Virus record (IMG/VR): IMGVR_UViG_3300049218_000129
Coordinates: 1-49,411 of that record
Reading direction: 5' to 3' (one strand)
Source of the DNA: a virus
Length of the DNA: 49,411 nt
Positions 1 through 49,366 of the stretch are shown in pieces (within the stretch, counting starts at the first letter, position 1; each line of letters begins with the position of its first letter). Position numbers and translations under genes: made by a program. The notes under the pieces were generated by a model. The model saw nothing but the letters and a program-made list of their open reading frames with translations, had not been told where the DNA came from and did not search any database.

Positions 1-1
1 G

Positions 2-241
2 GGGGTTAACGGCTTGCAGGAGGATTTGGCTGAACTGGCCGGCGGGACGTATTTCGGCGCGGCGCAGACTGCCGAGCGGCTGGCGGAAATCAGCAAAACC
101 GTCTCCGAGGAGCTGGCCTATGCGTTGAAATCGGTCGAATTAGCCGAGATCGACGTTGCGCGTTGCCGCGAGACGCTGAGCGAGAAACAGGCGGCGGCTC
201 CGGACTACGTTTCCGATATCGCAATATGGGCGATTGTTTAG
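2..241 (+). CDS. Hypothetical protein, 5' end not in window
   Basis: The frame is open from base 2 to the TAG at 239-241. The readable product is Glu/Ala-rich and probably alpha-helical in its middle part. No family is recognised. TTG codons at 14 and 26 could be starts, but AGGAG at 18-22 lies too close to the second, so I treat the gene as entering from outside. If the contig is circular, the frame stays open across the junction from the right end. It ends 16 nt before the next gene and is probably in the same early operon. Confidence 0.45.
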   Translation, partial: GVNGLQEDLAELAGGTYFGAAQTAERLAEISKTVSEELAYALKSVELAEIDVARCRETLSEKQAAAPDYVSDIAIWAIV

Positions 242-256
242 GTTTAGGAGGGGAAA

Positions 257-523
257 ATGGCGCAATTTACAATCTATAATTCGGACGTGTTGATCGGCGT
301 GGTTGAGAGCGAAACCCCGGAATTGGCAGCGGTCGCCGTGTTTGAGGGTGCGTTCCGGCGTCCCTACGAGGTCCAGGCGTCGCACGGGCCGAATTGGGGC
401 AACGGCTCTGCCCGAATCAACGGCAACGGCGCGGAGAATCTCGATTACTGCGCGGACGTGTATATCCGCGATCGGCACGTTGCCCGCGTCGAAATGCGCG
501 AGATAGAGCGAGATAGAGATTGA
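257..523 (+). CDS. Small hypothetical early protein (88 aa)
   Basis: ATG at 257 follows a strong ribosome site (GGAGGGG, 247-253). The 88-residue product starts MAQFTIYNSD and has mixed charge, a Gly/Asn-rich middle and a C-terminal Arg/Glu run. I recognise no family. It is the last protein gene before the CRISPR-like repeats and the HTH regulator. In anti-CRISPR loci, small uncharacterised proteins often sit beside Aca-type regulators, so by position alone it is a candidate anti-CRISPR protein; nothing in its sequence supports that. It ends in TGA inside TTGACT (520-525), a possible -35 for the repeat transcript downstream. Confidence 0.7.
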   Translation: MAQFTIYNSDVLIGVVESETPELAAVAVFEGAFRRPYEVQASHGPNWGNGSARINGNGAENLDYCADVYIRDRHVARVEMREIERDRD

Positions 524-548
524 CTGGGTTAGAAAATGACGTCAGTTT

Positions 549-639
549 ATGTTCCCCGCACACGCGGGGATGACCCATTACTTTGCGGTTTTTATTCGCA
601 CCCGATGGCAGCGTTCCCCGCACACGCGGGGATTTATCA
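549..639 (+). CRISPR. Type I-E-like CRISPR mini-array (2 repeats, 1 spacer-like unit)
   Basis: Two units (549-577 and 611-639) share a 21-nt core starting GTTCCCCGCACACGC with the CCCCGC/GCGGGG hairpin of type I-E repeats. Against the common 29-nt I-E repeat as I remember it, unit 1 has about 3 and unit 2 about 5 differences, mostly in the 3' handle. The period is 62 nt, so the unit between (578-610) is 33 nt, the size of an I-E spacer. No cas genes or long array are present, which fits a phage mini-array or RNA anti-CRISPR rather than a defence array. A perfect palindrome TGACGTCA (537-544) lies just upstream. Unit 2 directly abuts the GTG start of the HTH gene. Confidence 0.8.
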
Positions 640-837
640 GTGACCGCCTCCGAACTCCAAACCGCCCGCGCCGCCTTGGGTTTGACCCAGGGCGGCCTGG
701 CTACTGCGCTGGGCGTCGGTCGCCGCACGGTCCAGAATTGGGAGGCGGACGACCGGGCTATTCCTGAAACTGTCGCCAAAATTTTACGCGCCGCGCTGGT
801 AGACCGCACGATGCTGGACCGGATCGCTTCCGCTTAA
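640..837 (+). CDS. Small HTH regulator, Aca-like by position
   Basis: GTG at 640 gives 65 residues. A helix-turn-helix of the XRE/lambda-repressor type spans roughly residues 5-50 (ARAALGLTQ, LATALGV, RRTVQNWE, IPETVAKILR). The frame also opens upstream through the repeat, but the HTH domain begins only after the GTG, and the upstream codons spell the repeat itself. There is no Shine-Dalgarno: the 5' leader is the second I-E-like repeat. The gene lies between a type I-E-like mini-array and a type I-C-like repeat. Anti-CRISPR-associated (Aca) proteins are small HTH autorepressors of such loci, so that role is inferred; the sequence alone says only DNA-binding regulator. Confidence 0.75.
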   Translation: MTASELQTARAALGLTQGGLATALGVGRRTVQNWEADDRAIPETVAKILRAALVDRTMLDRIASA

Positions 838-848
838 GCCAAAGCCGC

Positions 849-880
849 GTCGCCCCCAGCGCGGGGGCATGGATCGAAAC
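849..880 (+). CRISPR. Solitary type I-C-like CRISPR repeat
   Basis: This 32-nt element begins GTCGCCCCC and ends GGATCGAAAC, with a GCCCCC (852-857) / GGGGGC (863-868) stem and a 5-nt loop. Length, GTCGC start, central GC stem and ATCGAAAC end are all hallmarks of type I-C repeats. No second copy was seen nearby, so it is a solitary repeat unit. It starts 11 nt after the HTH stop codon and is probably co-transcribed with it. There is no U-run after the stem, which argues against an intrinsic terminator. Expected role (inference): sequester host Cas5/Cas7 of a type I-C system as an RNA anti-CRISPR. Confidence 0.75.
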
Positions 881-917
881 TTTGTGACCCTCGCTCACTA
901 GCCGCCGCCGCGCGAGG

Positions 918-970
918 TTTCGGGGTGGGACGCGCGCGTGAATTAGGGTTTTCGGGGTGATACGCGCGCG
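918..970 (+). repeat. Pair of 21-bp direct repeats, 32-bp period
   Basis: TTTCGGGGTG-NN-ACGCGCGCG occurs at 918-938 and 950-970, identical except for two central bases. The 32-bp spacing is close to three helical turns. The pair lies just downstream of the I-C-like repeat in a stretch without a convincing gene. It may be a tandem operator or a duplication. The rest of 881-1222 shows no clear gene apart from one doubtful short frame. Confidence 0.5.
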
Positions 971-993
971 GGCGGGTATCGGAAAGATCGACA

Positions 994-1113
994 ATGAAGC
1001 CGGCCAGCGTATTGTCATCAGCCGAATCGGTAGGCACCGCCGGCGCCGGCGGGCATGTCAGCAGTGCGTCCGGTATTTTAATTGGGGGGGTTGTTGAACT
1101 GGTCGGGTATTAA
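994..1113 (+). CDS. Possible 39-aa ORF
   Basis: ATG at 994 follows a weak purine tract (GGAAAG, 981-986) and runs to TAA at 1111-1113. The product is Gly/Ser/Val-rich (start MKPASVLSSAE, end VVELVGY). No family is recognised and no other gene in the strand context supports it. It may be spurious. Confidence 0.25.
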   Translation: MKPASVLSSAESVGTAGAGGHVSSASGILIGGVVELVGY

Positions 1114-1222
1114 GCCAGGACTGACCCGAAGTTTCCTGCTTGTGCAGCACCACTGCACCGCGCCTATGGTGATCCGTGGAATTTTACCTCTCCACAGCCG
1201 AGGGTTGGGGGATATGTGGGAC

Positions 1223-1582
1223 TCAGGCGGGATTGCCAATAGCGGTGACGATCATGCCCTGGTTATCGCCCCCAAACGGAGGCCGGATAACTAGATCGGC
1301 GCGGCACCGCACACGCACGCCGACAATCTCTGAAACGCGGGTGGCGATGCTCTGGATCATGCCCTCCATCTCGCGCACGTCTTTATAGCCGCCAACGTAC
1401 TGCGCGGCCATGTCAGCCAGATGCTCGACCGGGAACACGATGCCAACCGGGCGATAGCTGACGCGCACCTTCGAGCCGGCCAGTGGGTTGCCGCTCTTGG
1501 GGCAGCACGCCGGAAGGTCGATGACGTGATGCACCGCTGTATCAACGTCTGGCGAGGCGTGGCGCTCTTTGTACTCGATCAA
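1223..1582 (-). CDS. QueF-like T-fold protein (7-deazaguanine pathway)
   Basis: TTG at 1582 overlaps the TGA that ends the dpdA reading (1579-1581) and gives 119 residues. The sequence follows the QueF pattern: CPKSGNP (Cys27) corresponds to the CPxTGxP region carrying the catalytic Cys, then a YxP strand, a helix ending REME, and C-terminal RADLVI. The NADPH-binding block of true preQ0 reductases (E-S-K-S-L-K type) is absent and the Asp after CPxTGxP is replaced, so it looks more like QueF-like amidinotransferases than the reductase. Next to a DpdA gene it probably acts on preQ0 inserted into phage DNA or on its precursor. This is an inference from motifs. Confidence 0.5.
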   Translation of the reverse strand: MIEYKERHASPDVDTAVHHVIDLPACCPKSGNPLAGSKVRVSYRPVGIVFPVEHLADMAAQYVGGYKDVREMEGMIQSIATRVSEIVGVRVRCRADLVIRPPFGGDNQGMIVTAIGNPA

Positions 1583-2093
1583 TGGAACGCCTCTATGAAT
1601 GAAAGCTGTGGGGTAATCCGGTCGATCCGGTCGCTGTAGCGCTGTGCCTCGATAGGGCTGTTGCCGTTGCGGCCCTCGATCCGAGCGGCATAACATAATC
1701 AGCAGGCGCATAGCCTTGCAGCACCGGCATGATATAAACGCCGCCAACGTCGCAGGCCAGCAGGTCATCGTAGCGTTCGACGGTAAGGCGCTGATGCTCG
1801 GGCACGGTTAGGCCAGTCTTTGCAAGCATATGCTGCTCGCACATATAATCTTGCGCGACCGCAGCCAAAAGCCGGCCTTCGCCGCTCCATCTTTTGATTT
1901 GCGCGGCGTAGGATGAAACAGGCTCTGGATAGCCACCGTGCATGTTGATGGTTGAGAACGCGCCGCTATCCATGATCCATTCGCAGTCGCCAGCAAAGGC
2001 CGCCTTGCGCTTAGCGACGGTATGCACAGAAATGAACGCACGCTGAAATTTGCGCGCATCGCCCGGGTGATGAAGGCCAACGAAGAAGCGCAC
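1579..2093 (-). pseudogene. dpdA: DpdA-like 7-deazaguanine DNA transglycosylase, internally deleted
   Basis: GTG at 2093 begins a TGT-like protein: MRFFVGLHHPGD, WIMDSGAF (Asp42), QDYMCE and YIMPVLQGY are typical of phage DpdA, which swaps guanine for preQ0 in DNA. At about residue 133 (near 1685-1697) the frame leaves the family, reads nonsense and stops at 1593. The frame two bases on then reads AARIEGRNGNSPIEAQRY and ends at 1579, matching the expected DpdA C-terminus. The middle of the protein, including the usual substrate-binding segments, is missing. The break is therefore an out-of-frame internal deletion, or an assembly join of strain variants. The stop overlaps the QueF-like start, as expected for an ancestral operon. 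Confidence 0.65.
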
Positions 2094-2106
2094 ACGTTTC
2101 TAACTT

Positions 2107-2271
2107 TCAACGGAGATTGATTTCAACGATTTGGTAAAGGCGGCCGCCCAGCTTTGCTTTATGATAAAGCTGGGCATCGCGGCGGCAATCGAAAACGAAA
2201 AGTTTGCCGTCTTCCCTGGTAATAGCTTCTATGTCGCCCTTTGGGCCGCAGACTAAAAGTATGCACTCCAT
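2107..2271 (-). CDS. Small hypothetical protein (54 aa), first gene of dpd operon
   Basis: ATG at 2271 gives a 54-residue product (start MECILLVCGPKG, end YQIVEINLR). A longer in-frame start at 2307 exists, but the upstream residues look like leader. No family is recognised. It ends 13 nt before the GTG of the dpdA remnant and so heads that - strand operon. It is transcribed from the divergent promoter near 2340-2365. Confidence 0.5.
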   Translation of the reverse strand: MECILLVCGPKGDIEAITREDGKLFVFDCRRDAQLYHKAKLGGRLYQIVEINLR

Positions 2272-2336
2272 AGCTTGGGCTCTCCGGGCGGTTTGTGACT
2301 GAACCATTCGATAAATTCAAACGGTTCGATTTACCT

Positions 2337-2405
2337 TGATTACCATTGCGCTTGTAATCTGTCAACTAAAAATGTTTGACAAATAACAGACAAATGTCGT
2401 ACAAA
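2337..2405. promoter_or_regulatory. Divergent promoter pair with inverted -35 boxes
   Basis: TGTCAA (2360-2365) and TTGACA (2376-2381) form an inverted repeat, so each strand gets a perfect -35. On +, TACAAA (2400-2405) is a -10 with an 18-bp spacer; on -, TAATCA (2342-2337) is a -10 with 17 bp. The + start would fall close to the ATG at 2411, implying a leaderless or near-leaderless mRNA. The palindrome centred at 2370 could double as operator for the RHH protein. Confidence 0.55.
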
Positions 2406-2410
2406 TACGC

Positions 2411-2584
2411 ATGACAAAAAGCCCACCCAAGCCACGCCGAAAGACGGAAACTATCGCCGTGCGAATAGACCCGGAAACAAAAGCCAAAGCCGAAATTGCC
2501 GCTGCTGCTGATGATCGCAGCTTGTCCCAATGGGTGACGGCACTGATTAAGGCCGCACTGAAAGGTAAGCGCCGTGGACCCTAA
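2411..2584 (+). CDS. Ribbon-helix-helix (CopG/Arc-type) regulator
   Basis: ATG at 2411 gives 57 residues. After a basic start (MTKSPPKPRRK) comes ETIAVRIDPETKAKAEIAAA followed by RSLSQWVTALIKAAL, the strand-helix-helix pattern of small RHH DNA-binding proteins. It is the first gene of the + early operon and has no Shine-Dalgarno, consistent with leaderless translation from the promoter 6 nt upstream. It probably dimerises and autoregulates the inverted repeat between itself and the dpd operon; antitoxin-type use is an alternative, but no toxin partner is evident. Confidence 0.7.
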   Translation: MTKSPPKPRRKTETIAVRIDPETKAKAEIAAAADDRSLSQWVTALIKAALKGKRRGP

Positions 2585-2678
2585 TTATGTTTATGTGATG
2601 CGCTTGAATGACCGGGCGCATAAGATCGGTATTAGCCGAAAGAAATATAAATGTTCGCGCCATCTGACCCGAGCCTGA
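2574..2678 (+). pseudogene. Truncated T5orf172 (GIY-YIG-like) domain remnant
   Basis: GTG at 2574 overlaps the RHH stop and gives 34 residues. The start VDPNYVYVMRL and KIGISRK match the first two strands of the T5orf172/MUG113 domain, a GIY-YIG-related nuclease fold. The family then needs about 60-80 more residues, but the frame stops at 2676-2678. The next gene starts inside it at 2651. It is either a remnant or an expressed mini-domain. Confidence 0.4.
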
Positions 2679-2779
2679 CCAGGGCGCAAGCGGCAGAAAA
2701 GATCGGGGTTAGCCCGTCCACGGCGTACCGAGAGCTTGGCCCACGAGATCAACCCATATTTGGAAGGAAGCCTAAGTAA
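2651..2779 (+). CDS. Small HTH (resolvase/AlpA-like) protein, 42 aa
   Basis: ATG at 2651 follows GAAAGAA. The product contains TRAQAAEKIGVSPSTAYREL, a Hin/resolvase-like helix-turn-helix, and then a short basic tail ending GRKPK. It carries no other domain. Its TAA overlaps the next ATG as TAATG (2777-2781), showing translational coupling. A role in DNA binding or as an adaptor for early gene control is inferred. Confidence 0.5.
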   Translation: MFAPSDPSLTRAQAAEKIGVSPSTAYRELGPRDQPIFGRKPK

Positions 2780-2967
2780 TGAGCGCCGATAAAATCCCAT
2801 TTATGTGTACGCCAAGCAATCCATGGAAACCTGAGTATGGCACGCCGGTTCAGCACTTGAACGCGCAGGAATATGGTGAGCAAGAAGATGACTGGGGAGG
2901 CGCGTCTTACGCCAAAATGATGTGTCCCGATTGCGGCCATCGCTGGAAAACGGAATTGCCCCAATGA
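2779..2967 (+). CDS. Small zinc-ribbon-like protein (62 aa)
   Basis: ATG at 2779 overlaps the previous TAA. The 62-residue product is acidic and ends with MCPDCGHRWKTELPQ, one CxxC knuckle followed by GHRW as in half of a zinc ribbon; a further Cys lies near residue 10 (FMCTPSN). Metal binding is plausible but only three Cys and a His are available. Phage early zinc ribbons often bind host nucleic-acid machinery. The next ATG overlaps its end. Confidence 0.6.
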   Translation: MSADKIPFMCTPSNPWKPEYGTPVQHLNAQEYGEQEDDWGGASYAKMMCPDCGHRWKTELPQ

Positions 2968-3212
2968 ATGACCTGGTGGAGCCTACCCCGCCGCAGCCAA
3001 CCCTTGCGCTAACGCTTCAATCGCGTTCGCTGCTGGAAATCGCAGTCCGGCAATCAGCGAGCCGTGCGACGATGACGTTCAATGAACTGGTCGCCGGATG
3101 CACTCCGGATGAGCGGGAGCAATTGGCGTGGCATATCGCGATCTGTCCGCATGGGGCGCGACCGAGCCCCTTGCAGAGCATGATGTTCAGCATCACACGT
3201 TTTGACGGTTAG
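2964..3212 (+). CDS. Hypothetical early protein (82 aa)
   Basis: The in-frame ATG at 2964 overlaps the TGA of the zinc-ribbon gene (ATGA), so I prefer it to an upstream in-frame start at 2922. The product has a Pro-rich start, then an alpha-helical region (SLLEIAVRQSASRA) and a Cys-containing middle (CTPDEREQLAWHIAICPHG). No family is recognised. It is part of the close-packed + operon. Confidence 0.6.
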   Translation: MNDLVEPTPPQPTLALTLQSRSLLEIAVRQSASRATMTFNELVAGCTPDEREQLAWHIAICPHGARPSPLQSMMFSITRFDG

Positions 3213-8756: not shown

Positions 8757-10949
8757 TTATTTCCCGGCCATAATGTTACAGTCCGGATTTGCTGAAAAAA
8801 TGATGGTATCTGTTGACGTGCTCGTAACGCTGAAGACGCCCATGGTGTAAGTCATGTTGGCAGTCGGTGCCGCAAATGTTAAAGCGCTCACCAGCGTTGC
8901 ATTGCTGCCTGTGGCAGCGGTTCCTACACTACCGTTATTAAGACTCATATTTAGAGTTCCTGGGCTACGTTGAGCAAAAAACGTAAGCGGCCATGCAGCG
9001 ACCGTATCGGCCGTAATATCTTCCGCCATGATTGTACCTGTGCAGTATTCTGCCATAAACGCACTACCCGTATGCGGGCTTGCCAGACTAAGCGAATTTT
9101 GTAAGGATAGCGCATTGGAGTTATCAGTGGTGAGAATGACGGTTCCCGTACCCGCCAGTTTTCCATAAAGATGTTCTCTACAATTTTCTCCTGTCGCCGC
9201 TCCACTATCAATTTCAGCGGATGCAAAACAAGATACACCCGTTATAGCTAAGGGATCGGTGCCAACGCCGATTGCAGCTTCGGAATTTCCGCAAGCATAC
9301 CCATTTTTTCCAGTAACAAAATCGTAGTTTGCCGCCGAACAGGTGGAAGAAGTTTGTCCATTGACGAGATTAGCAAAACCCGCTGCGGTACTCTGATCTC
9401 CGAGACCTACCGATACAAGTCCTTCTCCTGTCCGATTTCCAAACTCCTCCTGGACATTGGTTAGAACTCGGTCCTGAGTCGCGGAGTTTAGAGAAGTGGT
9501 CCAGGATGCGCCACCATCGTTAGCATTGATGGTGATTCGACCGTTAATTCCCGATCCGGTTGTAAGAAAAGTTCCCGCAGTAGAAGAAGAAATGTCTCGA
9601 ATATTGAAATACATTCCTTGACCCGCTTGAAGGTTTAAAACTCCGCCTCCTCCGTCTCCTCCGATATTGCCATCAAAAGTAATATCTAACGGTGTTTGAG
9701 CGGTTCCGTTATTTAGAGTGGATAACGCATAATACCCAGTTGGTGGTGTATTTAAAATAGCATCGCTAAATGTAATATCTGATACCTGGCCGTTATATAC
9801 GCTTCCAGTACAACCAATGTCGAGGTTGTCGCCAGCCACCGGTTGCTCCACGCGAAACCCAACAAACCGCAAGTTGCCTATTCCGTTGTTGGCATTTTGC
9901 GAGCAAATTTGCACGCCGGTAGATTGCGGGCTGTAATCATTATAATCTACAAAAAATATCTGGTTAGTGCTGTCAATCGTCCCAACATCGGTAATGTCCA
10001 TGGCTGGAAGTGTAGAAGTGCCATCCCGTGATCCGCGTATATTAGAAAAGAAACTTTCTCTTATGCTTGCATGTGTTTCTGTTCCAGTAGTATGCCCCAT
10101 AGAGAGCTTATAGCCGTGCATATAGTTGACTTCGATATTTTCCATATCGACATATTGATCTTCGCCATAAAGCATAATAGCGTTTTGCTGATTTGACGCT
10201 GCTGTGAAACCGTTAATGGTTATGTTTTTAAGCGTTGGCCCATAAAAATCCGCACTTGGAGGACCAGCTTGCGGCCCATATCCAGTAGCAGGAATTGACA
10301 CGTTATTCCAGGAGAGCACGTCACCGTTGTATTGTGGGTCGATCAACAGATATGTTTTGTGTACGGATGCACCTTCAATGCACCCACCATGTCCGGTAAA
10401 AGTGGGAAGATTGGTGCCGATAATGTAATAAGATCCAGCCGGAATAAATACGCAAGCTTTAATTCCTTGAGCATTAAGTGACGATTCTTTAGCCATCGCC
10501 GTTGCAATAGCGGCGCTGTCGTCAAAACCATAGTAGTATTGAGCGTTGGATATCGCAGCGGATGCCGTAAACGAAACATCCACGTCATGCGCATCGACGT
10601 AAGCGGTTATTGTGCCGTATTGAAGCTGTGTCAAACTGGCGCTTTCGGCCAATTCCTTACCGACATCCGCAGGTGTAAAAGTTGCTGATGCAGAGTTAAA
10701 GACTTGCGAACCGCTTGTCATTGACCCATCTGCATATCCGTTGGCTGTTCCTAATGCGCCAAAGTCTTTTACATTTAACCAGTCATTAAAATGAGCAGAC
10801 ATAACGCGTGCAGCCGTAGCATACGCAGGAAGCGCCGTCGTGGCGCTGGCATCTCCATGCATAGTACCAAATGTCGGATTTGGCTGAGCAAATGAAATGC
10901 AAGGCAACAAAAGCATCAACAGAACAAAACTAAGCCTCATTAAGCTCAT
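8757..10949 (-). CDS. Tail spike/fibre with beta-helix domain and Sec signal
   Basis: ATG at 10949 gives 730 residues. A clear signal peptide (RLSFVLLMLLLPCISFAQ) precedes the mature chain. NVKDFGALGTANG and FDDSAAIATAM, then ACVFIPAGSYYI, are the usual opening of pectate-lyase-3-type right-handed beta-helix spikes. The C-terminal part is Thr/Ser/Gly-rich and probably trimerises. The expected role is binding or degradation of host surface polysaccharide. A Sec signal is unusual for a virion protein assembled in the cytoplasm. It is the last of a series of fibre-like genes. Confidence 0.7.
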   Translation of the reverse strand: MSLMRLSFVLLMLLLPCISFAQPNPTFGTMHGDASATTALPAYATAARVMSAHFNDWLNVKDFGALGTANGYADGSMTSGSQVFNSASATFTPADVGKELAESASLTQLQYGTITAYVDAHDVDVSFTASAAISNAQYYYGFDDSAAIATAMAKESSLNAQGIKACVFIPAGSYYIIGTNLPTFTGHGGCIEGASVHKTYLLIDPQYNGDVLSWNNVSIPATGYGPQAGPPSADFYGPTLKNITINGFTAASNQQNAIMLYGEDQYVDMENIEVNYMHGYKLSMGHTTGTETHASIRESFFSNIRGSRDGTSTLPAMDITDVGTIDSTNQIFFVDYNDYSPQSTGVQICSQNANNGIGNLRFVGFRVEQPVAGDNLDIGCTGSVYNGQVSDITFSDAILNTPPTGYYALSTLNNGTAQTPLDITFDGNIGGDGGGGVLNLQAGQGMYFNIRDISSSTAGTFLTTGSGINGRITINANDGGASWTTSLNSATQDRVLTNVQEEFGNRTGEGLVSVGLGDQSTAAGFANLVNGQTSSTCSAANYDFVTGKNGYACGNSEAAIGVGTDPLAITGVSCFASAEIDSGAATGENCREHLYGKLAGTGTVILTTDNSNALSLQNSLSLASPHTGSAFMAEYCTGTIMAEDITADTVAAWPLTFFAQRSPGTLNMSLNNGSVGTAATGSNATLVSALTFAAPTANMTYTMGVFSVTSTSTDTIIFSANPDCNIMAGK

Positions 10950-39168: not shown

Positions 39169-39253
39169 GCTTGGAAGCCCGGACTCGAGCGAGCCCAAAA
39201 CCAATGCGGATCACGATGACGTAAAAAACCAGTAGGATAACCAGGGCCGCCAT
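39161..39253 (-). CDS. Tiny membrane peptide (30 aa)
   Basis: ATG at 39253 overlaps the TGA of the NusG-like gene as TGATG. The product is one hydrophobic span (MAALVILLVFYVIVIRIGFG) and a basic tail. It ends inside the start region of the next gene (GTG overlapping TAG). The coupling on both sides is the main support. Confidence 0.4.
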   Translation of the reverse strand: MAALVILLVFYVIVIRIGFGLARVRASKRA

Positions 39254-39831
39254 CACGTACTCGCTTCTAAAAGTAGGACAACATCCTCGCGCAATAGCCG
39301 GACCTCAGTCATCCAGCCGCCAAGATTGACCGTCGTATGTAGCCCGTCACAACCCGCGCAAAGCCCCTTGTGGCCCTCAAAAACCCCCCGGAGCACTTTA
39401 ACCCGCGCGCCTCTCTTAATCGGCTCCACGGCCTTCCTAGGCAGTTTTAACCGGTTGGACTCGTCAGCGATCAGCGCATCCACATCAAATCCTCGGATCG
39501 GCTCAGGCTCATATTGCGCGTTACACATCAATCGGATAACGCCGTCGATACCCACGCCGTCACGCCGCCGTGATATTTGTCCCCAGCCGTCCGATGACGC
39601 AAATCGGGCAAATATGTACGGGCCAAACATCGGAACGGCAATTGATTTACGTACTCGCACACCGTTGACCATAATCCGGCGTTCAGTCGCAACGCTGGGT
39701 AAATACGCCTCAAATCCGTGAGATTTTATGCCCGATACGGCGCGGAATTGCTGGTTTGGAATGCATTGGACGACGTGCCAAGCGGGAATTCGCGGCGACA
39801 ATCGCAAAGCGGCGCTCAATCCGGCCCCCAA
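39253..39831 (-). CDS. NusG-like transcription elongation/antitermination protein
   Basis: The frame starts at TTG 39831 or TTG 39819 (better SD GGGGG). The product, about 190 residues, begins with an NGN domain: WHVVQCIPNQQFRAVSGIKS, GFEAYLPSVATERR, and PMFGPYIFARFASSDGW. A KOW domain closes it (RVKVLRGVFEGHKGLCAG). This is the order of NusG/RfaH paralogues, which bind RNA polymerase and suppress termination. It sits at the promoter-proximal end of the late operon (about 34 kb), so it probably makes late transcription processive; paralogues also occur in alphaproteobacterial phages. Confidence 0.7.
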   Translation of the reverse strand: MGAGLSAALRLSPRIPAWHVVQCIPNQQFRAVSGIKSHGFEAYLPSVATERRIMVNGVRVRKSIAVPMFGPYIFARFASSDGWGQISRRRDGVGIDGVIRLMCNAQYEPEPIRGFDVDALIADESNRLKLPRKAVEPIKRGARVKVLRGVFEGHKGLCAGCDGLHTTVNLGGWMTEVRLLREDVVLLLEAST

Positions 39832-44637: not shown

Positions 44638-45084
44638 TTAGATTATGGAACTGGCAATTCTGAAATTAACAAAAGCGACCGCGCAATGCGCCTCGCAATA
44701 CGAGTAGTTTGGCAACGCATTATCCCGGCATTCAAACCGAATTGGACGTTCACCGCTTGGCCACATACACGAGGCCGAGCGCAAAAGTAAGGGAACCGGT
44801 TTCTGTGGGACGACGGGCGCGCACGTAAGCGGTGGCAATGTAGCTATTTGCCGTATTCTAGTCGGTTTGACTGAACGCGGTTTTTCAGAATAGACAATTG
44901 GTGAAGGACGGCACGGAAGATTAAGGCGATGCGCTTTTCCGCAAATGCTGTTTTTTGAAAACCCCAGTTTCTTTCCGATTTGGTTTAATGAATATAAAGA
45001 ATTGCCTTTCCCATCAGTTGCGCTCCACAATTCCCGCAATTTTTCAACGACGTCCGGGGTCCAACCTGATCCTGATGTACTCAT
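44638..45084 (-). CDS. gcrA: GcrA-family regulator
   Basis: ATG at 45084 gives 148 residues. The start (WTPDVVEKLRELWSA, SLYSLNQIGKKLGFSKNSIC, GKAHRLNLP) is the GcrA DNA-binding helix-turn-helix, and the end (CMWPSGERPIRFECRDNALP, CEAHC) is its Cys/His-rich sigma-70-binding domain. GcrA works with sigma-70 at promoters carrying GANTC sites methylated by CcrM in Alphaproteobacteria. A phage copy would steer host transcription or mimic the host regulator. It overlaps the next gene by ATGA. Confidence 0.85.
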   Translation of the reverse strand: MSTSGSGWTPDVVEKLRELWSATDGKGNSLYSLNQIGKKLGFSKNSICGKAHRLNLPCRPSPIVYSEKPRSVKPTRIRQIATLPPLTCAPVVPQKPVPLLLRSASCMWPSGERPIRFECRDNALPNYSYCEAHCAVAFVNFRIASSII

Positions 45085-47134: not shown

Positions 47135-47688
47135 TGATGAACGCAGATCAGTTTTTTTTATTCGTGAACAATAAGCGTGTTTCCTTGACCGCGTATCTGG
47201 CCATGTCCCCTGAAACTGTGCAAACCGTCGATGCGTGCGGCTGCACGGCGCTGACGGAACTCGCCGCGCCCAAGGCAATCACCGTCGATGCGAGCGGCTG
47301 CACGGCGCTGACGGAACTCGCCGCGCCGGAAGCGACCACCGTCTATGTGAGCGGCTGCACGGCGCTGACGGAACTCGCCGCGCCGGAAGCGACCACCGTC
47401 TATGTGAGCGGCTGCACGGCGCTGACGGAACTCGCCGCGCCCAAGGCAATCACCGTCGATGCGTGCGGCTGCACGGCGCTGACGGGTTATGAGCATTTTT
47501 ATGCGGGATCAGATTCTCGTGGATATGTCTTTTCGGCAATCAAACTGCACGGATCATGGCGATTTATCGCAGGGTGTCGCAATTTTACACGTGAGGAAGC
47601 GCTGCATCATTGGGGTCCTGGGGGTCGCAGCAATCGTCCAGATTGCCTTGCGCTGGTGCATAAGCTGATTGCGCAAATTGATGCGTGA
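47131..47688 (+). CDS. Repeat protein with 19-residue LRR-like units
   Basis: ATG at 47131 (second and third ATG directly follow) gives 185 residues. After a short N-terminal part come five units of GCTALTELAAP-x-A-x-TV-xx, 19 residues each, like short bacterial leucine-rich or beta-solenoid repeats. The C-terminal domain (GYVFSAIKLHGSWRFIAG, FTREEALHHWGPGG, LALVHKLIAQI) is shared by many phage repeat proteins as far as I recall. Function is unknown; binding of a host protein is the natural guess for such a scaffold. Repeat DNA is nearly identical. Confidence 0.65.
   Translation: MMMNADQFFLFVNNKRVSLTAYLAMSPETVQTVDACGCTALTELAAPKAITVDASGCTALTELAAPEATTVYVSGCTALTELAAPEATTVYVSGCTALTELAAPKAITVDACGCTALTGYEHFYAGSDSRGYVFSAIKLHGSWRFIAGCRNFTREEALHHWGPGGRSNRPDCLALVHKLIAQIDA
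47239..47490 (+). repeat. 57-bp coding repeats
   Basis: Units starting GGCTGCACGGCGCTGACGG recur at 47239, 47296, 47353, 47410 and 47467 (the last incomplete). The 57-bp period encodes 19 residues. Copies differ only at a few codons, with copies 3 and 4 the most alike, implying recent tandem duplication. Confidence 0.85.
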
Positions 47689-48526: not shown

Positions 48527-49366
48527 ATGCTCGCATATACCCACCCGAAAATCACGCGCGATGCGTTTCTCGCGGAATTGCAAGCGCATCAGGACGCCGA
48601 CCAGATCATCAAGGGTACGTATGGTCGGATAGAAGGCAATAAATTTCTCGGATGTGCGGTCGGATGCTCGCTAGATAGCGTGCGCCGAGTTGCAAAAATA
48701 GAAACATTAGAGACCGATAAGCATGACTTGTTTGAAACATACCTCGGTATCCCAAAACTCCTGGCGCAATTGCAGGACGCTATTTTCGAGGGATTATCGG
48801 AGGAATACAATTTGGCTTGGCCGATGCGATTTAGTTCGGCAATTCAAAGCAATGCCGATCTCTCTGGTGTATGGGCCAAAGTCGCTCCCCGTATTTTGCG
48901 TGAAATTGTCATACCCACAATTCAGCCTGAGTTTGATTATGTGCGCGAAGTAGTCGCGCGGGTTGCGTTGGGCTGGGAAACTGGTTGGGCAGCCGAGAGC
49001 GCGGAGAGCGCGGCATGGAGCGCGGCGAGCGCGGCATGGAGCGCGTTGAGCGCGGCGTTGAGCGCGGCGAGGAGCGCGGCGAGGAGCGCGGCATGGAGCG
49101 CGGCGAGGAGCGCGGAGAGCGCGGCGAGCGCGGCGAGGAGCGCGGCATGGAGCGCGGAGAGCGCGGCGAGGAGCGCGGCGAGGAGCGCGGAGAGCGCGGC
49201 GAGGAACGCGGCGAGGAGCGCGGCATGGAGCGCGGAGAGCGCGGCGAGGAGCGCGGCGAGGAGCGCGGAGAGCGCGGCGAGGAACGCGGCGAGGAGCGCG
49301 GCGTATTACAAAATGTCAGAAATCCTGTGTGAAGAATTGGCTGCGGCGCCGATTGTTGCATCATGA
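48527..49366 (+). CDS. Ala/Ser/Arg-repeat protein (279 aa)
   Basis: ATG at 48527 follows ATGGAGA (48514-48520); an in-frame start at 48443 is less likely as it overlaps the previous gene. Residues 1-155 form a globular domain (LAYTHPKITRDAFLAELQAH, GCAVGCSLDSVRRVAKIETL). About residues 156-260 are tandem SAARSAAWSAES-like units with Ser every 4-5 residues, then a short end (MSEILCEELAAAPIVAS). Such low-complexity Ala/Ser/Arg repeats occur in several phage proteins and probably form an extended helical rod. Function is unknown. Confidence 0.65.
   Translation: MLAYTHPKITRDAFLAELQAHQDADQIIKGTYGRIEGNKFLGCAVGCSLDSVRRVAKIETLETDKHDLFETYLGIPKLLAQLQDAIFEGLSEEYNLAWPMRFSSAIQSNADLSGVWAKVAPRILREIVIPTIQPEFDYVREVVARVALGWETGWAAESAESAAWSAASAAWSALSAALSAARSAARSAAWSAARSAESAASAARSAAWSAESAARSAARSAESAARNAARSAAWSAESAARSAARSAESAARNAARSAAYYKMSEILCEELAAAPIVAS
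48990..49304 (+). repeat. GC-rich tandem coding repeats
   Basis: Units built from GCGGCGAGGAGCGCG and GAGAGCGCG recur over about 315 bp. A longer block of about 78 bp near 49140-49215 is repeated almost exactly near 49217-49295. All three frames and the complement stay open over much of it because no unit contains a stop. Confidence 0.75.

Follow-up and report, generated by a model that had tools for sequence, protein, structure and literature searches.

A complete solitary type I-C CRISPR repeat lies on the plus strand near the beginning of the viral record IMGVR_UViG_3300049218_000129, and it is a member of a published class of elements. The window, i.e. the whole stretch of DNA analysed, comprises positions 1 to 49,411 of that record. 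Solitary repeats of this kind (SRUs) were validated as RNA anti-CRISPRs (Racrs) by Camara-Wilpert et al. (PMC10651486), and the SRUFinder set of viral SRUs numbers 2,103 (PMC10651486); solitary I-C repeats therefore belong to an anti-CRISPR class already in the literature. Two type I-E repeats precede the I-C element on the same strand (Table 1). We consider it probable that the I-C element works as an RNA anti-CRISPR, and the I-E repeats may bind Cas6e likewise; transcription, binding, inhibition and joint action of this kind are what we infer from the sequence.

Table 1. Features of the two-subtype locus (positions in the window)
Feature	Position	Strand	Basis or remark
Orphan ORF, 88 aa	257..523	+	strong Shine-Dalgarno
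Type I-E repeat 1	549..577	+	24 nt exact to canonical repeat
I-E spacer, 33 nt	578..610	+	between the two I-E repeats
Type I-E repeat 2	611..639	+	stem-loop intact, handle degenerate ATTTATCA
Small HTH (XRE/HTH_3) protein, 65 aa	640..837 (GTG to TAA)	+	Pfam
Solitary type I-C CRISPR repeat (SRU, candidate RacrIC), 32 nt	849..880	+	sequence, fold, weight matrix

The I-C element reads GTCGCCCCCAGCGCGGGGGCATGGATCGAAAC and is laid out as GTC-GCCCCC-AGCGC-GGGGGC-ATGGATCGAAAC, with GTCGC at its start and ATCGAAAC at its end. The stem GCCCCC/GGGGGC encloses a loop of 5 nt and is followed by a single-stranded 3' part, TGGATCGAAAC; the predicted fold has a 6-bp stem and a free energy of -13.9 kcal/mol. 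Apart from the loop and nt 21, which is A in place of the consensus G, every I-C consensus position is intact. The A removes the C3-G21 pair (-13.9 kcal/mol compared to -15.5 kcal/mol with G). The I-C consensus matched the 49 kb record at this site only, and 100 dinucleotide-preserving shuffles gave no match. When scored with a weight matrix built from 54 distinct 32-nt I-C repeats, the element reached 46.2 bits, while the next best site of the window scored -31 and the best score in first-order Markov windows was -17.5. The difference between 46 bits and -31 rules out chance as an explanation. No degenerate second copy was found in the 100-nt flanks, where the best local matches agreed in 17 of 33 and 18 of 32 columns (shuffled flanks gave 17 on average), indicating that the element is solitary. 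With its single repeat, it also falls outside the definition of a type I-C array (at least two repeats, spacers of 33-36 nt). The original prediction of a full 32-nt type I-C-like repeat that stands alone, starts 11 nt behind the stop of the HTH gene and has a very small probability of arising by chance was borne out in all these respects.

Alignment with type I-C repeats had been set beforehand as a test, and it gave full-length matches. The element is identical at 30/32 positions (93.8%) to array-terminal repeats in loci L007 and L008, and at 29/32 (90.6%) to the array repeat of a Paracoccus MAG. When 84,980 genomes were scanned, with the loop of the repeat left free, two matches were obtained, one in the Paracoccus MAG and one in an alphaproteobacterial MAG. 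In the Paracoccus MAG, the match stands last in an array with 46 copies of GTCGCCCCCTTCGCGGGGGCGTGGATCGAAAC, and cas5d lies on the same contig, 5 kb upstream of the array, with a score above the curated cut-off. The second match is likewise the last repeat before the end of an array. The exact repeat was matched in two of 385 sampled alphaproteobacterial genomes, namely in G240 and in the Paracoccus MAG itself. The matches to array and terminal repeats indicate that the element represents a genuine I-C repeat type. Neither the Paracoccus genome nor the other MAG could be established as a host with both systems, as no I-E repeat within two mismatches was detected in them. We also considered A at nt 21 as a mark of uncuttable solitary decoys; it occurs in 2/80 solitary and 1/160 arrayed repeats, which is too few for such a conclusion.

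Other parts of the window give hints about the host. The minus strand encodes, at 44638-45084, a GcrA-family protein, a homologue of the cell-cycle regulator. GcrA is an alphaproteobacterial protein, and this homologue therefore hints at an alphaproteobacterial host, in agreement with the repeat type. The nearest named portal protein is that of Shewanella phage vB_Sb_QDWS; at 54%, this kinship is too distant for testing conservation. A NusG-domain protein (39253-39831, minus strand) adjoins the terminase genes, and strongly repetitive coding stretches are present at 49010-49310 (GCGCGGCGAG-type units) and 47230-47490 (GTCGATGCGTGCGGCTGCACGGCGCTGACGGAACTCGCCGCGCC-type units). On the minus strand, ORFs 1223-1768 and 1593-2093 overlap in different frames; the match of the latter to DpdA/queuine tRNA-ribosyltransferase is confined to the first half of that protein, and given the half match and the overlap in another frame, the DpdA-like gene is probably frameshifted.

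SRUFinder requires at least 90% identity and at least 90% coverage to a known repeat, a blastn-short score of at least 41.1 bits, an intergenic position, and no partner above 70% within 100 nt (PMC10651486). Compared to repeats from the loci of this analysis, the I-C element shows 90.6-93.8% identity over its full length. Its blastn-short score was 48.1 bits against terminal-type repeats and 40.1 bits against array-consensus repeats (cut-off 41.1), the comparison repeats being again those of our own loci and not SRUFinder's 17,823-repeat database. The element is intergenic, located behind the HTH stop; two minus-strand ORFs overlap it (758-1018 and 834-1037), both of them unsupported, and ORF 758-1018 has no Pfam match. 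No partner is present within 100 nt. The element resembles other viral SRUs and Racr candidates in its intergenic position, in the absence of cas genes, in its identity of at least 90% to a known repeat and in the lack of a flanking partner. Unlike them, it is probably co-transcribed with an I-E mini-array at a distance of 209 nt, whose repeat pair SRUFinder would discard as an array.

To place the element among viral I-C repeats, we used a looser I-C pattern, which found 104 IMG/VR stretches with 194 repeat copies. Besides the one in the window, 72 copies in 71 IMG/VR loci are solitary, i.e. have 110 clean nt on both sides. One stem pair had been left free by the search pattern, and it forms a standard pair in 71/72 solitary copies (G-C 26, C-G 15, T-A 14, A-T 9, wobble 7), while 10,000 shuffles gave 29 such cases on average and 44 at most. 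Such covariation with all four Watson-Crick pairs indicates that the hairpin is retained in solitary copies. By itself it would not prove a function in the phage, as recent independent capture from arrays would fit equally well. According to a simple ORF rule, 46 of the 72 solitary repeats are located outside ORFs of at least 70 aa. Two further features were examined as general patterns of viral I-C SRUs and rejected: a downstream terminator was found in 2/69 cases (the strict test misses bulged stems), and HTH genes were not seen as regular neighbours among the 25 of 38 families listed for 108 neighbouring ORFs.

The I-E repeats were recognized by a 21-nt sequence that recurs exactly, at 551 and 613, with a period of 62 nt. 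They form a mini-array of two 29-nt repeats at 549-639, and the gap to the I-C element (640-848) is 209 nt, in line with the roughly 210 bp given in the original prediction. The 5' handle of repeat 1, ATGACCCA, is nearly intact compared to the expected ATGAACCG. Repeat 2 abuts the GTG start codon of the HTH gene exactly, and its GGGG is the gene's only Shine-Dalgarno-like stretch, a weak one (duplex -5.7 kcal/mol). In other phages with I-E repeats (L110:720-798, plus strand; L113, L114 and L116), the last copy is intact only through GGGGAT, which ends just past the Cas6e cut site, as does repeat 2 of the window. Like viral mini-CRISPR arrays (PMC6858448; reviewed in PMC11656645), the locus has two I-E repeats at array spacing and one spacer, without cas genes. 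It differs from them in that no leader or target was found and in that repeat 2 degenerates beyond the Cas6e cut site and runs directly into a start codon. The search for a target in IMG/VR, in which the spacer had to match exactly except at five free positions, returned no related virus or other hit, and within the window the best match was 20/33.

On the plus strand, the order is 88-aa ORF, I-E repeat 1, spacer, I-E repeat 2, HTH gene and I-C repeat. No terminator-like or promoter-like site was predicted on this strand from 235 to 987, and neither a promoter upstream of the locus nor a terminator downstream of it was recognizable, which weighs against an RNA anti-CRISPR. The 88-aa ORF probably shares a transcription unit with the HTH gene; it has no relatives in IMG/VR, and the predicted structure of its product (pLDDT 53) was not used. 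Considering the shared strand, the short gaps and the lack of a terminator between them, the I-E and I-C repeats could be carried by one transcript. The earlier proposal of one transcript with decoys against two subtypes thus stands as far as the arrangement is concerned. It does not hold in full for the I-E part, as two repeats with a 33-nt spacer could give rise to a guide RNA and need not act solely as a decoy. A scan of positions 1-3000 against Rfam gave no match, and BLAST searches of the region and of the 32-mer against named phages gave weak, chance-like matches inside genes only.

The start codon of the HTH gene is backed by the relatives L006 and L143, as their proteins start with this residue too. 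The HTH protein also matches Aca2/YdiL (PF08965) with 23.9 bits (cut-off 23.8), covering profile positions 1-55 of 118 only, and HTH_3 outscores this profile. As with aca2 and other anti-CRISPR-associated HTH regulators, a small HTH gene adjoins a candidate anti-CRISPR element; unlike aca2, the Pfam match is borderline, the protein has 65 aa compared to a 118-position profile, and an operator is only conjectural. Just behind the I-C repeat, the plus strand carries near-identical 21-nt direct repeats at 918-970 (TTTCGGGGTGGGACGCGCGCG and TTTCGGGGTGATACGCGCGCG, 32 nt apart), which are possibly operator sites. The two close relatives of the HTH gene (77-78% identity) carry neither CRISPR repeat beside them, so the locus is a single case without conservation, which likewise weighs against the anti-CRISPR reading. 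In these relatives, only the HTH gene can be aligned; since the surroundings are not conserved, absence of the repeats from an otherwise conserved region, which had been named as grounds for refutation, was not what we observed.

These observations bear on the main rival explanation, according to which the last I-C repeat and the end of an I-E array were recombined from a host and are now drifting without present function. We regard this as rather unlikely. Consistent with it, A at nt 21 is present in just 1/160 arrayed repeats examined, that one being a last repeat, and both genome matches of the A variant are last repeats as well. The GC content of the first 2 kb is 60%, compared to about 45-56% elsewhere, and the absence of the repeats beside the HTH relatives also fits. 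However, the I-C consensus is intact except for nt 21 and the loop, two unrelated subtypes are kept within 300 nt of a compact intergenic stretch, and lone I-C units are kept as a class in many phages. Capture of an array end explains the origin of the element and does not decide its function.

The combination of two subtypes had been put forward as undescribed, yet it is also present in two other records. The exact I-E 21-mer was found in 12 other IMG/VR stretches, all from records that lack an I-C repeat. Searching the whole I-C records for I-E repeats brought up one, IMGVR_UViG_3300031901_000009 (L038, L100). Besides a solitary I-C repeat, it contains two mini-arrays, one of type I-C with two repeat variants and one of type I-E (L038:8001-8269 and L038:2748-2928, both on the minus strand), and no cas genes were seen in the part examined. 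Two of its spacers nearly match its own neighbouring genes (one I-C spacer 27/34, one I-E spacer 24/33), as expected for the targeting of a related phage. L014 and L038 have one I-C spacer in common at 94%. The second record, IMGVR_UViG_3300008255_002065 (L102), carries an I-F mini-array at L102:2425-2513 (plus strand), consisting of two repeats GTTCACTGCCGCACAGGCAGCTTAGAAA with a 61-nt period, and a solitary I-C repeat at 10571 (minus strand). Phages with two subtypes are infrequent among the records sampled (2 of about 100). Like the window, IMGVR_UViG_3300031901_000009 combines a solitary I-C repeat with I-E repeats in one phage record, but there, full mini-arrays with near-self spacers extend over about 15 kb among structural genes. 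In the window, unlike in the other two-subtype records, the repeats are packed around a regulator gene within 330 nt. Two kinds of repeat side by side are therefore unusual and not unique; outside the supplementary candidate lists, our search found no published description of such a pair.

Among the 59 ORFs of the window, no cas family was detected with PADLOC and Pfam. The sole type IV-associated match (DinG) is to a helicase model, and Pfam assigns ResIII/DEAD helicases. With no cas family in the window, the partner of the repeats must be a Cas protein of the host. Cleavage of the I-C repeat by Cas5d takes place at the hairpin base and produces a 5' handle of 11 nt and a 3' handle of 21 nt; the enzyme requires the hairpin and a 3' single strand, and it remains on the hairpin (PMC3890593, PMC5965380). 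The I-C element provides these features. As an RNA anti-CRISPR, it would be transcribed together with the HTH gene, and Cas5c (Cas5d) of a type I-C host would bind the hairpin and the 3' single strand, possibly cut after nt 21, and then remain on the hairpin. Judging from the sequence, the A at the cut site could weaken this processing. Cas5c, and possibly Cas7, would be tied up on an RNA without a useful guide. Most likely, the element would titrate Cas5c and give rise to useless complexes; this has been demonstrated with Cas6f and Cas7f in the case of RacrIF1. Cas6e would find its stem-loop twice in the I-E repeats, which lie on the same strand and might bind it likewise, so that one transcript could hamper two subtypes. 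Processing of the mini-array, should it occur, would also give a guide RNA whose handle is altered; no target for it was found.

The closest known counterpart is RacrIC1 of a Bifidobacterium pseudocatenulatum prophage, which is located 11 nt after acrIC5, is part of a bicistronic RNA and inhibits type I-C (PMC10651486). The two have in common that a solitary I-C repeat is located 11 nt behind a small phage gene of the same orientation. In contrast, the neighbouring gene encodes an HTH protein here and AcrIC5 there, and inhibition by RacrIC1 was measured while the element of the window is a candidate. The part of PMC10651486 considered here reports no repeat of a second subtype beside RacrIC1.

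A more elaborate version of the anti-CRISPR function would be a Cas-sensing operon, in which one transcript combines the I-E repeats, an Aca-like regulator and the I-C repeat. Binding or cutting of repeat 2 by Cas6e would remove the Shine-Dalgarno-like GGGG before the regulator start, the repressor would be lowered only in type I-E cells, and both repeat types would titrate Cas6e and Cas5c. We think this version improbable. Guide-type use, by which crRNAs made from the I-E mini-array, and perhaps also from the I-C repeat and the RNA downstream of it, would direct host Cas effectors against a rival phage or a gene, appears distinctly improbable. The geometry of 29 + 33 nt is right, the L038 spacers nearly match neighbouring genes, and virus mini-arrays have been described (PMC6858448). 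However, the I-E spacer has no target in the searches given above, the I-C element lacks a second repeat to close a crRNA, and both I-E handles are altered.

It is very improbable that the repeats are landing or control sites, serving Cas-dependent regulation or integration and not inhibition. Other repeat-like sequences do mediate integration into arrays or transcriptional repression (PMC10651486), and Cas6e cutting would alter the HTH message, as repeat 2 abuts its start codon; on the other hand, neither a tie to an integrase nor an array junction was seen, and cutting at the I-C repeat behind the HTH gene would not affect HTH translation. A chance hairpin or transcription terminator, as a GC-rich stem after a gene end might suggest, is virtually excluded by the weight-matrix score and by the lack of a T-run after the element.

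Racrs have been described as mimics of one subtype each. If active, the short two-subtype locus would give the phage a compact, RNA-based means against hosts that have two CRISPR systems, and the other two-subtype records suggest that such an arrangement recurs. With a repeat fused to the start codon of a regulator, the sensing of Cas6e by a phage through its own message becomes directly testable.
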